A stretch of 64,000 bases of DNA from Tetracentron sinense (Eukaryota; Streptophyta; Magnoliopsida; Trochodendrales; Trochodendraceae). Positions within the stretch are counted from its first letter, which is position 1. Each line of letters begins with the position of its first letter. Where the stretch lies: NCBI GenBank assembly GCA_015143295.1, contig CM026551.1, positions 12,883,827-12,947,826 of the forward strand, written 5' to 3'. The position numbers were made by a program, and so were the translations under genes. The notes under the pieces were generated by a model, which did no database searches, had not been told where the DNA came from, and saw only the letters and a list, made by a program, of their open reading frames with translations. Shown here one piece after another: positions 27,399 through 63,990 of the stretch.

Positions 27399-27947
27399 TA
27401 CTAGTATAAAGAGAATGACCGGGTTAACGTTGATTAAATTTCAGTTGAATTTCATTTTAATTCAAAAACTGCTCATTTAGTATTATATAAAGAGAATGAT
27501 ACTTAAAAAGGTTGATTGAATTTTAGTTGAATTCCAAAACTGTTCATTTACTAATATATAAATAGAATAATATTTACAAAGGTTAAATAAATTTTAGTTT
27601 AATTTCAAAACTACCCCTTTATTAATATATAAAGAGAATGATACTTAAAAGGGTTAAATGAATTTTAGCTTAGTTCCAAAACTCCTCTTTATTAATATAT
27701 CTATACTAATATAAGAGTGATTGGGTTCAAAACGTGATTGAATTTTGTCTTAATTCCAAATTACCATTTACTAATTTCAGCTTTATTAATACAGGAACTT
27801 AAAAAGTTGATTGAAATATAACTTAATTTCATAACTGTGTTTTACTAAATATAAAGTAAATTTTGATAATTGGGCCAGTTGTCGAATCGGCTGGGTGACT
27901 CATTCTCAGTTCGACCGGTTTGGTTGAATCATGTCCTTTTATTATTA

Positions 27948-48100: not shown

Positions 48101-51100
48101 TGTATATTCCTAAGTTACCATTTAATCTGATGTCTGTTAGCAAACTAACATAATCCATACAATGTTTTGTAACCTTTTTCCCTTTTCATTGTGTCTTCCA
48201 AGATCTCAAGACAAAGAGGATGATTGGTGGAGGCCATGAATTCGTTGGTTTATACTACTTAGATGTTCCTCCTCAACCTACTGCAGCTGCCTTGCATTTT
48301 CAAGTGTCTCCTCTTCAATGGCATCAGCGGTTAGAACATCCCTGTCTCAATAAGTTAAAGTGTCTTGTTCTTTCTCTTCAGTCAGTGTCAAGCCTTCAAT
48401 GTGAAGCCTGTGAACCTAGTAAATATCATACGTAGTCTTTTAGTCTTAAAAAGTCGAGAAAAGGAGGTACGTTCCTTTCTCCTTAGTTCATTCTGATGTT
48501 TGCGATCCTTGTCGTGTCATAATCAGATTGGTTATTAAGGACAGAAGTAAAGTGCTACCTGTTTTTAAAGCCTTTCACAACGAAATATAAAAGTTCAGTT
48601 TAAAAAATAATTATAATGTTGTGTTTCATTCTGACAATGCTTTAGAGTATGTTCAGCATGAACTTAAATGATAAATGTGCAAATAATGGGATTCGAAATC
48701 AAAAATCATTGGGGGGTTTCAAACTCCTACTTTAGTTAGAAGTTAGAACCCTAGTTGGATTTTTTTTTTAGATTATTCTGTTAGATTGTTATTAGGGTTG
48801 CATACTTGCATCATTTTTTTTATTGGATTATTGGGGGTTTTCAAACTCCTATTTTGGTTAGAAGTTAGAACCTTAGTTGGTTTTTTATTTATTTATTATG
48901 TTATATTGTTATTTAGGTTGCGTACTTGCAACAATTTTTTTGTTGTTGTTGAATTATTGGGGGGTTTCAAAACCCTACTTTGGTTAACAATAGAACCCTA
49001 GTTTTTTTTTGTTTTTTTTATTCTGTTAGATTGTTGTTTGTGTTGCAAACTTGCATCATAAATTTTTTCATTTGTTCTATTAGGTTGTTACTAGGGTTGC
49101 ATACTTATTACTGTTGTTACTTTATTTCGTTTATTAATTAGAACCATGTTATTGCTCCTTTGGGTTGCATACTTGTTCAGGATTGTTACTGCTAGACTGT
49201 TTAGGGTTGCATACTTGTTACTGTGAGTCTGTGAGGGGTGGATCAACACAGATAAAATTAATTATTCTTTTTTGCAGATTCCAATCGGAATCAATATAAT
49301 GAGTTGTAAGAGTGATATAACAAATTGTTTGGTTAGATCATAGATGTCCACATGTCAGATGTAATCCTTTGACGGAGTACTTTCAAAATTCAAATATTTT
49401 TAATAGTTTAAGTTTTACAGTCTTGTAAATTCCTAAACAATCACATTTGATGGTAATGCATGAGTGCACGACACAATCTTAAATTGAGGATGCAATGTGT
49501 GAATAAATTCAATAAAAGTATAAAACCTTCATGTGTTACTATGTTGAAGGGATATTCCCCTTTAATTATCATTCTTGCTAATGCTTCTCGACTTCTTATT
49601 TGATCAAATTATTGACTTACGGGACTAATACCACCAAAAGCCATGGTCAATAATTGTTGATTGCTATCACGATTGGGTTTTCTAGGACATGTGTACTTTA
49701 AGTGGCTAGTTCCACTTCTAGCATCATTGTTCAATTGCCCTTTACACTATTTGCATTCACCTAAATGCACTTCTATCTTATCTTTACTATTTTTTTTTAA
49801 ATTTAAGTTACCATTTTTTGGTTAAAATGTTCCCAAACATTAGAAGTTTGTTTGGCTTTTTTGCTAGCGGGTTCACTAGCATCTTCAGCTTGAGAAGAGG
49901 GAGAGGGATGAAAAGGAGGACGGTGAGGACTAGGAGGGCATGATGATGTTACTTGCATCGAGGGCAGCTCACTAATAAGGTCATTGACCTCACTACTACC
50001 ACTACAACTACTACATGGAGTAAACATACTTTAAAAATTAATTATCTTAATGATATAACAAAAAATAACAGATGAAGTAAGACCCAATTTGGCATGTGTA
50101 AATTTTGGGTCTATTTGTCTATAAGTCTATCGCGAGTAGACGTTTTCACATTTTAGACCATTTAGTAGCATGTCTTACTTGCTATAGAGGGAGGGGGAAG
50201 ACAAAAAGACATTCCATGTCTAAAAACAAAGTTTAATTTTTGGTATTTTTGGGAAAGAAGCGCGCAACTATTACCGATAGACGATGGAACGGAGAATTTC
50301 GTCTTCTTCTACTGTGTTTCCTCCATATGAGCCTTTAAAAAAATCCTCTAGTACGCAGCTTTTATTTCTAAAAATTACAACAAAAAACAAAAAAAAAGTC
50401 TATTACTATGGGCTGCTAAATGGCTTTATTGTTAACAGATCTATTTCTTACAGATAATTTTGTCATGGATTTATTATGGCTAGATCTGTCCGATATATAC
50501 AAGATCAGATAAGATCTACCGAGCGAGTCCTAATGTAACAATAAGTCAATAACAGAAATGATAACAATCAAGCAAAATCTCCACTCCAATTAGTAGATAA
50601 CCGAGGAAGTAATAATAATAGTAAATATAAAAATAAAATAAATAAACCCTACGGTTCTAACTTCTAACAAAAGTAGCAGTAACAGTAACAGTCTAACAGA
50701 AAGAAGGTAGGATATTTTATAATGGCATGATCAATAACTCACACGAACAATTTCTAAAAATAACAACATCCAGCAGCATTTAATTTATGGGAATTGGGAA
50801 TGAGTAAAGGAGTTATACTAACAACCGGATGCAACAAAATAAATAAAGTACTACGTGACTTCTTCTGCATTGAAACATACAGTATCAGGCCGCATGAACA
50901 AACTGTTCCATGCACTTGTATCTCCACTAGCTTCAGATGCCTTCCTCTGTTCCTCCCTCTGTTGCTTAACAGTTTTTGAAGCTTGGCTGGCAGCAACATT
51001 ATTTCTGTAGAGTCCTCATTACATTATTCAAAAACACCAACATAAAAACCATAAAAAATTCAGACAGAAAAGGCAAAGAGACTAAAATATTTAGCTCTAA

Positions 51101-58114: not shown

Positions 58115-58508
58115 CTAGCAGGTGACATGTGCGATGCAAGGGAGAGCGAGGGGAAGGAGTTAACCACAATTAATAGTAGTTAAAAGGGACACGTGTTAAC
58201 CCGCAGGTGTGATTGAACTCCCTAGTGACATGTGCGATGCACGTGAGAGCGAGGAGAAAGAGTCAACCACAGTTAATAGGAGTTAAAAAGGACACGTGTT
58301 AACCCATGGGTGCCATTGAACTCTCCCCGAGTTCAATCACGATTAGCTGTGATTATAAACCGATAGATGAGCAAGGGATAGTTTGGAAATTAAATCAAAG
58401 ACAAGGGGTAGTTTGGGTTTTAAATCAAAATTTTGTTTTTATATAAGGATAGTATGAGAATTTTGGAAAAATCATCTACACCTACCTCTCCCATTATAAT
58501 AGTAAAAA
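58115..58508 (-). mobile_element. Non-autonomous Helitron, partner of 35486-35882
   Basis: On the minus strand it starts TTTTTACTATTATAATGGG and shares its whole body with 35486-35882. It also has two 3' ends, GCATCGCACATGTCACTAG and, about 80 bases on, GCATCGCACATGTCACCTG followed by CTAG. The final CTAG is followed by T on that strand. Lengths are 394 and 397 bp. Confidence 0.65.
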
Positions 58509-58849: not shown

Positions 58850-61137
58850 ATGGCGCATCGCCTGCGCTGCGCACCCCTAGCGCGTTACATTTCCTCCGCT
58901 TCTTCTCCTTCCACCTCTAAAATTCCCCTACTATGGAACACCGAAACCGAGTCTGCCGACGCAATCACCACCGTCCAACTCCTATCATGGGGTCGAGGCA
59001 GCTCCGGACAACTCGGCGGCGCCACCGAAGAGATCCGCCTCTACCCCTCCCCTGTCGCCTCTCTTATCCTTCCCTCTAAATTCCATCTCTGTCCCTTCCC
59101 CGGCCGTCTCCCACCGTCCAATCCACCCGATATCGCCGCATCGCCACCGTCCGTCGAGGTCGGCATCTCTTGCGGCCTCTTCCACTCCTCCATTCTCATC
59201 GATGGCAAGCTCTGGATTTGGGGCAAAGGCGACGGTGGACGCCTCGGGTTCGGGCACGAAAACCCGGCAACTGTTCCGACTCTAAACCCTAATCTTGATT
59301 GCATCCAAAGCATTGCTCTCGGTGGACTTCATTCTATCGCGCTTACTGCTCTCGGTGAAGTCTTCACTTGGTCAGTACTGCATTCATAAACACTTGTTTA
59401 ATCACAATTCTGAAATGTCTAATTATGAATCTATCAATTTCTTCTGTTTTTGATGAGTAGGGTTGTGTTCTTTCTCCTTGAATTTATTTTCATTTCAGTT
59501 TGTTTGATATGGTTAATTTGTAATTAGTGCTATGATGATGTTAATGGGTTTTTGTTTTTTTATTATAATTCATGTAATGTAGTGACTATGGTGAAATGTT
59601 AACTTGGTTGTGGTCACTGTCTCGGAAATTCACTTCAGTTCATGCTCCGTTTGTTTTGATGTAAAATAGAGGAATACAAAAGAATTCTACGGAAAATCTC
59701 ATTTTTCGTGTGTATTTTCTATAGGACAATTGACATTTTCCATGAATTTCATTTGTTTTCCCCTATTTTACATCAAAACAAACGGAGCATCAGTTGAAAT
59801 TGAGATTATTGTTGTGATGTTAAAGGGATTTGTTTGAATTTGTGGAATGGCTATGCTGAAATGTTAATGTGAATTTGTTTTTGATCTGTGTATTGTAATG
59901 ACTCAATGGTGGCGGTGAAGTTTGCAGGGGTTATGGTGGTTTTGGTGCTCTTGGGCATTCTGTTTATCATAGAGAATTGTTGCCTAGAATGGTGAAAGGT
60001 GTTGGAAATGAGAAAATATGCCATATTGCGACTGGTGGGACTCATACTGCCGCTATCACAGATTTAGGTTTGTCGATTGCTTATTGCTTTTTATGATGTT
60101 TAACTAAAGGATTTTTATATATTGGTTTGCGGATTTGAATAGATTTTGAGGAGTTCTAGTTCTCTATTAGAGCTTTTCATGGTCTGGGGATATTTCATTT
60201 TAAATCAATCTGGAATCGACCAGGGTACAGTCGGATCAGCCTGAATGGGAGTAGTAAGCGATCCGAGGGACTACTGGGAAAATGTATATTAAGCATGATC
60301 TGGACCCATAATGTGGTCTAGATCCAATTTTACTAGTTGGATCAAATTGAATTAGTAGATCACCCTAATCCATTTACACCCCTATTGTTTGGAGTTACCG
60401 AGAATGAGGGCCAATTTGATGCCTTACTTAACCACTGCACAATTGGAAATTCTGAATGAGTTGACATGCGTTTGAACAGTAGATTGGACCAAACATCATT
60501 TGTCAGATGATAAGTTACACACTGATGGAAACTCCATCCAAAACCTTATTCCTGTCAAAATTAAGTTTTGCCATTATTAGTTTAATGACTTTATGAGATC
60601 CTTTCGTTATTGGAATTTGGAAGCTAAATGGTTGATTGGAGACAAATTGGACGGTTTCGATTCATGTCCTAATATCCCTAAAATTCCATTAATGCAAAAC
60701 CATTTAGTAAATTAAGTGGCCAAATAAATCCATTTCCCCTTCAATGTAGCCAACAGAAAAAGAAGTGAATTTTGAAGCACATAATCAGACCAGACTAACT
60801 ATACTGTAAATGATGCTGTAAACTGTAAAGTTTCCAGTCATCTGGTGTACTTGTAATAGTATTAAATTGTGGTGTAGCAGATTAAAAGGATTTTATTGAG
60901 ATTGGTATTCTGTAGTTTTTGTGGTTTATTATTCATTTGACGTAGGTGAACTTTATACTTGGGGTCGAGATGAAGGAGATGGTAGATTGGGGCTTGGTGC
61001 CGTTCGTGGCCCAAATGAGGGTGCACTTAGTATCCCCTCCAAAGTAAAAGCATTACCTGTGCCTGTGGCTGCCGTTTCCTGTGGAGGTTTTTTTACGATG
61101 GCACTGACTAAGGAGGGACAGCTTTGGAATTGGGGAG
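58850..61137 (+). CDS. RUG3: RCC1-repeat protein RUG3 (first three exons; gene runs off the window)
   Basis: RUG3 of Arabidopsis is a mitochondrial RCC1-family protein needed for splicing of nad2 transcripts. Exons are 58850-59370, 59928-60067 and 60946-61137, all GT-AG with matching phases, giving about 284 residues. The N-terminus MAHRLRCAPLARYISSASSP is Arg- and Ser-rich without acids, as in a mitochondrial presequence. RCC1-type blades follow: LLSWGRGSSGQLGG, KLWIWGKGDGGRLGFG, VFTWGYGGFGALGH and ELYTWGRDEGDGRLGLG. They alternate with SCGLFHS, GGLHSIALT, GGTHTAAIT and CGGFFTMALTKEGQL. The order and spacing match RUG3 rather than UVR8 or RCC1. The start at 58850 (CCCATGG) is the first ATG. 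Exons after WNWG are beyond 64000 or were not seen. Confidence 0.92.
59643..59789. mobile_element. hAT MITE, 147 bp, in RUG3 intron 1
   Basis: TGCTCCGTTTGTTTTGATGT (27 bases in all) at the left is mirrored exactly at the right, ending CAAACGGAGCA. The flanks are TCAGTTCA (59635-59642) and TCAGTTGA (59790-59797), an 8-bp duplication with one mismatch. Both fit hAT. The high TIR identity suggests a fairly recent insertion. Confidence 0.85.
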
Positions 61138-61591
61138 GTGAGGATATCCCTTTTCTCGTTTTACTATTTGTCTACAAGATTCACGTTCAATTAAAATTAT
61201 TGATAATATTCTGAAAGAAAGCTTGTTTATTTTTTGGGCACCTTCTAAGATTTGGAAATTGTTTATTTTCTTGTTAAAGATAAGAAAAAAGAAAGTTACT
61301 ATTGAAGGTGCTTTCTAGTATGGATTTTCAAGGACTGAAAACCTCAATTCCTTCGTTTTTCTTTACAAGATTCCCAATAACAGAAAAATATCAATTTTAC
61401 TCTATAACGCACATCCTGGGGCACTTTCCTAGATATACTTAAATAGTGTTGAACCTGTTTCGGTGACAGATACAATATCATAGGTTTTTGTTATATTGTA
61501 GCTTGTTGGTTTGAATTGGCAATGTTAATCTAAACCTGCATGTGAGCAACGGAATTTACCGCATTTTCTTCCGGGCTAGGCCTTACTGAGG

Positions 61592-63990
61592 AATGATGCT
61601 AAACTCGCTCAATAGGAAGAAGAGAGTTTAAGGGGTGCAAAAATGAGGTGTTCACAGTTGTCCCTCTTTGTCGGAGAGTGCTTACAATTGAACGACAACG
61701 ATTGAAATCACCGTCATTTTTGCACACAAGAAACAACCTGTGAAACTTATGAAAATTAAAGATAGAAGACAGGAAAACTAAATTCTAACCCTAGTTAAAC
61801 TTGCAAAAACAAAATAATGGAGTTATTATGGATAGTAATTTATAGCCTTATTGCGGAAGACTGTTGGGAAAAATGGTTATAAGTGCTATATGGATCGAAG
61901 GGAGCTCGGGAAAACTATCGCATGAAGACGGACAATGTTCAAGGTGAGAGTACTACTGCATGAAGGTTGATGCAATACCTCAAATGAGCATTCTGAATGA
62001 ATGGAATGGATGACATCGCCTTAAATATAAACCAAAATGCTGGAAGATGACATTGACATCACCTAGAATGCCAACCGAATGAGGAGGATGACATCGCCTC
62101 GAATGTGAACCGAAAAGATGGAGGATGACATCGCCCAAAATATCGACCAAGATGATAAAATGGAAGATATTGCCTAGAATACCAACTGAATGGATGAAGG
62201 ATGACATCGCCTTGAATGTCAATCGAGGATGAAGGATAACATCGTCTAGAATGTCAACTAAAAAAATAAAGGATGACATCGCCTAGAATGTCTACCAAAA
62301 GGATAGAAGATGACATTGCCTAGAATGTCATGGATGGAGGATAACGTCGTCTAGAATGTCAACCGAAATGATGGAGGGTGACATTGCCTAGAAAGTCAAC
62401 TAAATGGGTGGAGGATGATATCACCTAAAATGCCAACCGAAATGATGGAGAGTGGCATCGCCTAAAATGTCAATCGAATGGATGGAGGAGAAAACGCCTA
62501 AAATGTCAACTGAAAATATGGAGGATGACATTGCCTAGAATGTCAACCAAAAGGATAGAGATGACATCGCTTAGAATGTCAACCGAATGGATGAAAGATA
62601 ACATTGTCTAAAATGTCAACCAAATGGATAGAGGATGACATCACCTAGAATGTCAATCGAAAAGATTGAGGATGACATCGCCTAGAATGTCAACCGAAAA
62701 GATTGAGGATGACATCGCTTCAATTGTCAACAAAAAGAATAGAGGATGACATCGCCTAGAATGTCAACCGAATGGATAAAGGATGACATTGCCTAGAATG
62801 TTATCATCCACCAATTTGGTTGACATATTAGGTGATGTCACCCTCCATCATTTTAGTTGACATTCTAGGCAATGTTATCCTCCATCCATTCGGTTGACAT
62901 TCTAGGCAATGTTGTCCTCCATCCATTCAGTTGACATTTTAAACGATGTCATCCTCTATCCTTTCGGTAGACATTCTAGGTGATGTCTTTTATTTATCTT
63001 TTCGGTTGACATTCTGGTGATGTCATCCTCTATCTTTTCTGTAGGCATTCTAAGCAATATCATCATTTCGGTTGACATTCTAAGCGATGTAATCCTCTAT
63101 CCTTTCGGTTGACATTTTAAGCGATGTCATCCTCTATCATTTTGGTTAACATTTTAGGTGATGTCATTCTCTATCATTTCGGTTGACATTCTAGGCGATG
63201 TCATCCTCCATCTTTCGGTTGACATTCTAGATGATGTCATCCTCCATCCATTCAGCTGCATTTTAGGCTATGTCACCACCCTCCATCATTTCGGTTAACA
63301 TTTTAGGCGATGTTTCCTCCATCAATTCGGTTGATATTCTAGGCGATGTCATCATTTATCATTTCGGTTGACATTCTAGGCGATGTCATCTTTCATCATT
63401 TCGATTGACATTCAAGGCAATATCATCCTTCATGCATTCGGTTGGTATTCTAGGCGATATCTTCCATTCCATCATTTCAGCCGATATTCAAGGCGATGTC
63501 ATCCTCTATATTTTTCGTTGACATTTTAGGCAATGTCATCCTCCTTTAATTTAGTTGGCATTCTAGGCGATGTCGCCTTTCAGTTGACATTCTAGGCGAT
63601 GTCATCCATTACTTTCATTCCGCATGCTCATTTGAGGTATTGCATCAGTCTTAATGCAGCAGTACTCTCGCCCTGAACACAATCAGTCTCCATGCGATTG
63701 TGTTCCCAAGCTCCTTCAATCCATATAACACTTACACCCTTTTTTTTTTCAGCAATCCTTCGCAATGAGGCTATAAATTACTTCCATCACTCTAGGGTTA
63801 GAATTTAGCTTTCCCTTCTTCTATCTTTTGATTTTCATAAGTTTCACAAGTTTCTCGTGTGCAAAAATGATGGTAATTTTAGTCTTTGTCGTTCAATTGT
63901 CAGCACTCTCCGACAAAGAGGGCAATTGTGAACACCTCATTTTTGCACCCCTGAAACTCTCCTTTCTTCCTATTTAGTGAGTTTAGAGTC
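61592..63990. mobile_element. Large foldback element with tandem-repeat arms in RUG3 intron 3
   Basis: Outer arms of about 400 bp are inverted copies: AGTTTAAGGGGTGCAAAAAT at the left and, in reverse complement, AGTTTCAGGGGTGCAAAAAT at the right. The pair continues through AATTCTAACCCTAG and ATGCAATACCTCAAATGAGC. Inside each arm lies a tandem array of roughly 33-36-bp units with core GATGACATCGCCTAGAATG. It is direct at 62000-62800 and inverted at 62800-63615. No transposase is seen. The right end touches the window edge, so the target duplication cannot be read. Confidence 0.85.

Follow-up and report, generated by a model that had tools for sequence, protein, structure and literature searches.

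An intronic foldback in Tetracentron sinense whose arms are 3' ends of a Ty3/gypsy-like LTR retrotransposon family

A foldback with long inverted ends and opposed tandem arrays at its centre lies near the right edge of the window, the 64,000-nucleotide stretch of Tetracentron sinense DNA analysed here. Is it a mobile foldback element, as the first-pass annotation had proposed, or was it put together from something else? The extent of the structure, the identity of its arms and the relationship between them were each considered in turn.

The inverted repeat and its intron

In a self-comparison, one inverted self-match runs end to end from 61541 to 64044, with 2610 aligned columns, 76.5% identity and 212 gaps; no inverted self-match longer than 36 arose in 50 mononucleotide shuffles. 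The inverted arms are confirmed as real and stand far above chance. Together with the array calls, this single match bears out the first-pass description of two opposed arrays between inverted outer arms, and the switch of array orientation near 62800 is likewise recovered (62054-62801 against 62798-63574, opposite). The boundaries required correction: the left edge moves from 61592 to 61541, and the right edge, previously placed within the window, lies at 64044, 44 bp beyond it, as read in locus L031 (window position = L031 position + 60000). Array-free sequence makes up 513 bp of the left arm and 470 bp of the right, where about 400 bp had first been estimated. The features are as follows.

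Up to 61540: host intron, adjoining the U5 end of the left LTR
61541..61656, - strand: left LTR, shortened to 116 bp; inverted partner of the right LTR; LTR ends elsewhere in the family match its outer 60 bp
61657..61680, - strand: left-arm polypurine-tract region, motif GTTGTCCCTCTTTGTCGGAGAGTG; same motif in all six long copies (L032-L037)
61681..62053, - strand: left-arm 3'UTR stretch; family matches genome-wide; sister to the right arm
62054..62801, - strand: left tandem array, 37-bp unit, 20.5 copies
62798..63574, + strand: right tandem array, the 37-bp unit of the left array inverted, 21.1 copies; turn at about 62800; centre pattern single in the genome
63575..63903, + strand: right-arm 3'UTR stretch; family matches genome-wide; sister to the left arm
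63904..63926, + strand: right-arm polypurine-tract region, CACTCTCCGACAAAGAGGGCAAT; motif match at 63904-63927
63927..64044 (window part to 64000), + strand: right LTR, shortened, 118 bp
To 64682: GTCC after the right LTR; primer-binding site at 64049; a stretch without match elsewhere; LTR start (- strand)

Pfam RCC1 matches are found on the + strand on both sides of the foldback, at 60900-61211 and at 67278-67532 and 67662-67856 (window numbering, L031), and the earlier intronic placement therefore holds. The foldback lies within an intron of about 6 kb between RCC1-repeat exons, whose edges were judged by eye. Neither an empty site nor a second copy of the intron was found in the plant's own genome. 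In a genome search, the 718 bases beyond 64682 match only themselves and one 77-bp stretch elsewhere.

The arms as retrotransposon tails

Both arms are 3' ends from a single Ty3/gypsy-like LTR retrotransposon family, each comprising array, 3'UTR, polypurine tract and LTR. Searched against the genome, the left arm drew 1363 first-look candidates; 40 of these were scored, the query locus among them, and every one matched (42 matches including second pieces). The copies inspected, part of the 1363 candidates, were 29 other loci of 3.3 kb (L002-L030) and six 9-kb stretches (L032-L037), partly overlapping. All six long copies share one order, namely array, UTR, purine-rich tract (AAAGAGGGGCAAC or close) and then TGTGAACACC or a one-letter variant, which matches the 3' end of an LTR retrotransposon; within each of them, the array runs in a single direction. 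The inner repeats, previously called satellites, are 3'-UTR tandem arrays of this family.

The coding region provides a further marker. Upstream of the array in L037, the frame 7825-8901 matches Pfam rve (5.8e-13) and Integrase_H2C2; open frames were listed for three of the six long copies (L033, L034 and L037), with the Pfam scan covering L037. The clade is probably Tat, and an integrase upstream of an array does not by itself separate Tat from other Ty3/gypsy clades. Ogre arrays were reportedly described by Macas in 2009 as an origin of satellites. The excerpted literature on the Tat-clade elements Ogre and Retand describes non-coding arrays between integrase and 3'LTR that vary among subfamilies, as they do here (PMC11963269, PMC7004042), with arrays between pol and 3'LTR in about half of the recently active Retand elements (PMC11963269) and Ogre arrays acting as a source of satellites (PMC7004042). 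The Tat-clade criterion given in PMC6317226 is the second RNase H domain and its position. Unlike in Ogre and Retand, two 3' ends face each other at the present locus, and the LTRs are inverted and shortened.

The outer edges of the foldback are LTR ends. With 61541-61600 as query, 39 other scored places in the genome match. In the five copies printed, the repeat begins TGTGAGCAAGG after differing flanks, which read backwards is an LTR end, ...TTGCTCACA; a pattern combining the family LTR end with the primer-binding site occurs at 759 places in the genome, the present locus included (reversed control, 0). The primer site reads TGGCGACTCTGCTGGGGA in five other copies and TGGCGACCCTGTTTGGGA here; this is a usual primer site for such elements. 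The arm ends coincide exactly with LTR ends, and both shortened LTRs retain TG...CA ends and a polypurine tract on the inside, with a primer-binding site outside the U5 end of the right one. On the left, the U5 end TGTGAGC... (...GCTCACA in reverse reading) abuts the host intron at 61540, while the right LTR has the polypurine tract on one side and the primer-binding site on the other. The LTR start that ends at 64682 is of another type than the two complete LTRs and lies in minus orientation. Nothing in the stretch up to 64682 matches elsewhere in the genome except its last ~85 bp, and the part between the primer site and this LTR start has no match elsewhere. A reading of the stretch as a complete short LTR was rejected, the family LTR end positions showing an LTR start only, in minus orientation.

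Plant LTR elements mostly make 5-bp target-site duplications, some of 4 or 6 bp (PMC6317226). The duplication sought at the true right end is absent at either candidate, 64044 or 64682. Over 5 bp, the left flank CTGCA agrees with GTCCT after 64044 at 2/5 letters and with AACGT after 64682 at 0/5; over 9 bp, the two ends agree at 3/9 and 4/9 letters, respectively. An 8-bp comparison of the flanks at 61540 and 64682 agrees at 6/8, which is weak given the lengths and ends tried. Direct LTRs are likewise absent: the two complete LTRs are inverted and no 4-6 bp target-site duplication accompanies them, so the structure is a derivative and not an intact element.

The first-pass interpretation held in part, but a mobile foldback element is not supported. 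Copies of the arm are indeed spread over the genome, but the copies inspected are single tails with one-direction arrays, and none of the 35 stretches is a foldback. Inverted self-matches of at least 200 were found in 0/29 of the 3.3-kb stretches and 0/6 of the 9-kb stretches, the longest being 100 (L016). The array-to-array centre pattern, in which short gaps but no mismatches were tolerated, has a single match in the 1.16-Gb genome, at the present locus (control, 0); a stricter earlier form did not recover the locus itself. For the other common unit type, a pattern run without a positive control gave 0 genome matches.

Origin of the foldback

The reading favoured here, at a probability of roughly 0.8, is that the foldback is a decayed single-copy composite in which two 3' ends, from one subfamily of a Ty3/gypsy-like LTR retrotransposon (probably Tat), meet at their arrays and have their U5 ends outward. 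Evidence for a shared origin of the two arms comes from the shortened LTR. When its outer 96 bp served as query (310 candidates), only two of the 40 scored hits matched across, both at the present locus; in the remaining 38, the match is confined to the first 29-46 bp of the LTR plus the tract on its inside. Further decayed members of the subfamily may exist among the 310 candidates, of which 40 were scored. A tree was built from 33 arms: those of 29 copies, both arms of the foldback and two from a pair on C15. The left and right arms are sisters in it with 99/99 support, and much of its backbone is weakly supported. The arms are identical at 268/320 sites, and the best other copies reach 0.801 with the left arm and 0.810 with the right. 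Because the only two copies found with the shortened LTR sit 2.4 kb apart, we infer that one linked event produced the pair.

The foldback is probably old, since both arms are far from the family: they carry 59/326 and 50/298 changes from it, whereas the 29 other copies, from which this yardstick was itself built, average 30.1 and reach 44 at most. C-to-T plus G-to-A changes make up 26 of 59 and 22 of 50 in the arms and average 11.7 of 30.1 in the others; as a candidate footprint of cytosine methylation, this share shows nothing clear beyond age. An assembly artefact is unlikely, as the arms differ at 52 of the 320 compared sites.

A plain inverted duplication of an integrated copy with its flanks was rejected: the left LTR is bordered on its left by host sequence, the right LTR is followed by a primer-binding site, and the inverted match crosses neither LTR end. 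Nor does an inversion within one ordinary linear copy explain the foldback, because the right LTR has both a polypurine tract and a primer site. This layout fits a circular or tandem element, or a plus strand made by copying back along a minus strand. The most likely route, at about even odds, would be that a copy duplicated in tandem or in some other way was rearranged at the DNA level, the break falling within the arrays and deletions following.

The foremost rival, itself doubtful, holds that two elements of one subfamily inserted separately in opposite orientation, adjoining or nested, and that the sequence between their arrays was deleted. The arrays provide evidence for it and a point against the composite reading. 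Their unit order is shared overall (2/2000 permutations as good) because of the outer third, where 8/2000 permutations are as good, compared with 1781/2000 in the middle third and 924/2000 in the inner third; colinearity confined to the outer third also fits two insertions. Tandem arrays turn over from within, and unit order therefore does not decide between duplication and two insertions. Nested insertion is common among plant LTR retrotransposons (PMC6911290). Against this history stand the shortened LTR, found in these two copies only, which would make independent hits within 2.4 kb of a 1.16-Gb genome a coincidence, and the need for both deletions to end inside arrays.

Less probable again is a snap-back cDNA, in which the minus strand, primed at the primer-binding site, would have turned inside the array, copied itself and integrated. 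The product of this unlikely course would read LTR, polypurine tract, UTR, array, array, UTR, polypurine tract, LTR and primer-binding site, the right LTR preceding the primer site because the copied-back strand reads in that order. The order and the exact ends match the locus, with a clean left U5 end at host DNA and with GTCC and a primer site after the right LTR; the sister placement of the arms agrees as well, and each 37-bp unit bears a short dyad, TGACAT-N8-ATGTCA. This account is opposed by the missing target duplication at either right end, by inner array units that are not colinear (though arrays turn over), by a hairpin that has one open end only, yet a third LTR start on the right, and by a dyad length that is weakly unusual in the units of the present locus (shuffle p 0.02-0.06). 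We hold it improbable that the foldback preserves an integrated snap-back cDNA that had turned in a 3'UTR array of dyad-bearing units, with inverted LTRs and U5 ends outward. If it did, 3'UTR tandem arrays would be a route to palindromic insertions and intronic hairpin RNA, and the TGACA(T)...(A)TGTCA dyad would have been the turning point as well as a feature of the retroelement RNA. The LTR start at 64682 and the missing target duplication are accounted for by neither snap-back nor tandem rearrangement.

Long inverted ends with tandem repeats inside are also the anatomy of Arabidopsis FARE elements. Drosophila FB, FARE and nematode Tm1 share it with the present locus, Tm1 having composite inverted ends and mostly 9-bp duplications (PMC3169594), whereas the present foldback is single-copy, has LTR ends and is without a target duplication. 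A mobile foldback DNA transposon (FB, FARE or Mutator-like) with composite inverted ends is a very remote prospect: the anatomy agrees, but the centre pattern is single, no inspected stretch is a foldback, an 8-10 bp duplication is absent and the termini are those of LTRs, accompanied by a polypurine tract and a primer site. In the composite reading, a foldback with satellite-like inner repeats can come from retrotransposon tails, no foldback transposon being needed, and anatomy alone is insufficient for filing such structures as FB elements. Among the matches listed for inverted LTRs, foldback hairpins, head-to-head LTR elements and snap-back reverse transcription, the arrangement is absent from the titles and the starts of the abstracts.

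Hairpin potential and related arrays

The earlier expectation of a very long double-stranded hairpin in the transcript is upheld as a potential by the computed fold. RNA of 61542-64044 folds at -1547.9 kcal/mol, with 1036 of 1059 pairs crossing the two halves; when the right half is turned round and the inverted repeat is gone, the value is -613.4 kcal/mol. In this model, about 1,036 base pairs could form between the arms of the intron RNA, and the effect of the foldback is likely passive, the predicted outcome being an intron RNA able to form a hairpin of about a thousand base pairs. Intronic inverted-repeat loci that give RNA hairpins are a known class, and a transcript over both arms here would likewise fold on itself; a hairpin locus of the small-RNA kind would be marked by 21-24-nt small RNAs derived from each arm. 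The present arms differ from that class in being diverged, with a longest unbroken cross helix of 34 bp and 12 helices of at least 21 bp, and the hairpin is known here from a computed fold.

The short dyad TGACA(T)...(A)TGTCA is found in several unit types (62054-63574; loci L002-L037, L053-L060 and L068), with loops that differ in sequence (CGCCTAGA, ACACATTTCGA, CTCATAACA and others). The stem length of single units departs weakly from chance (shuffle p about 0.02 to 0.45), and the dyad is missing from some arrays within these loci; a conserved RNA hairpin in the array units is a lead, not a result.

Other short tandem repeats occur in the window at 27446-27700, 48704-49059 and 58122-58323, with periods of about 71, 122 and 103 bp, and are unrelated to the foldback as far as they were looked at. 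At L037 95-6432, integrase, array and LTR on the same strand are followed downstream by long open frames, three of them without a Pfam match at 0.01; a tandem or nested element may account for this order. The family also has a second inverted pair, at C15:23806437-23823199 (L075, L068, L076), with 99.85% identity over 5358 bp. Within the part read, which stops short of the outer ends, no LTR end of the family was recognised, and the pair may be a true recent inverted duplication or an assembly error. It includes about 4 kb outward of the LTR start, and its left inner edge lies inside a tandem array, which suggests that arrays can be breakpoints.
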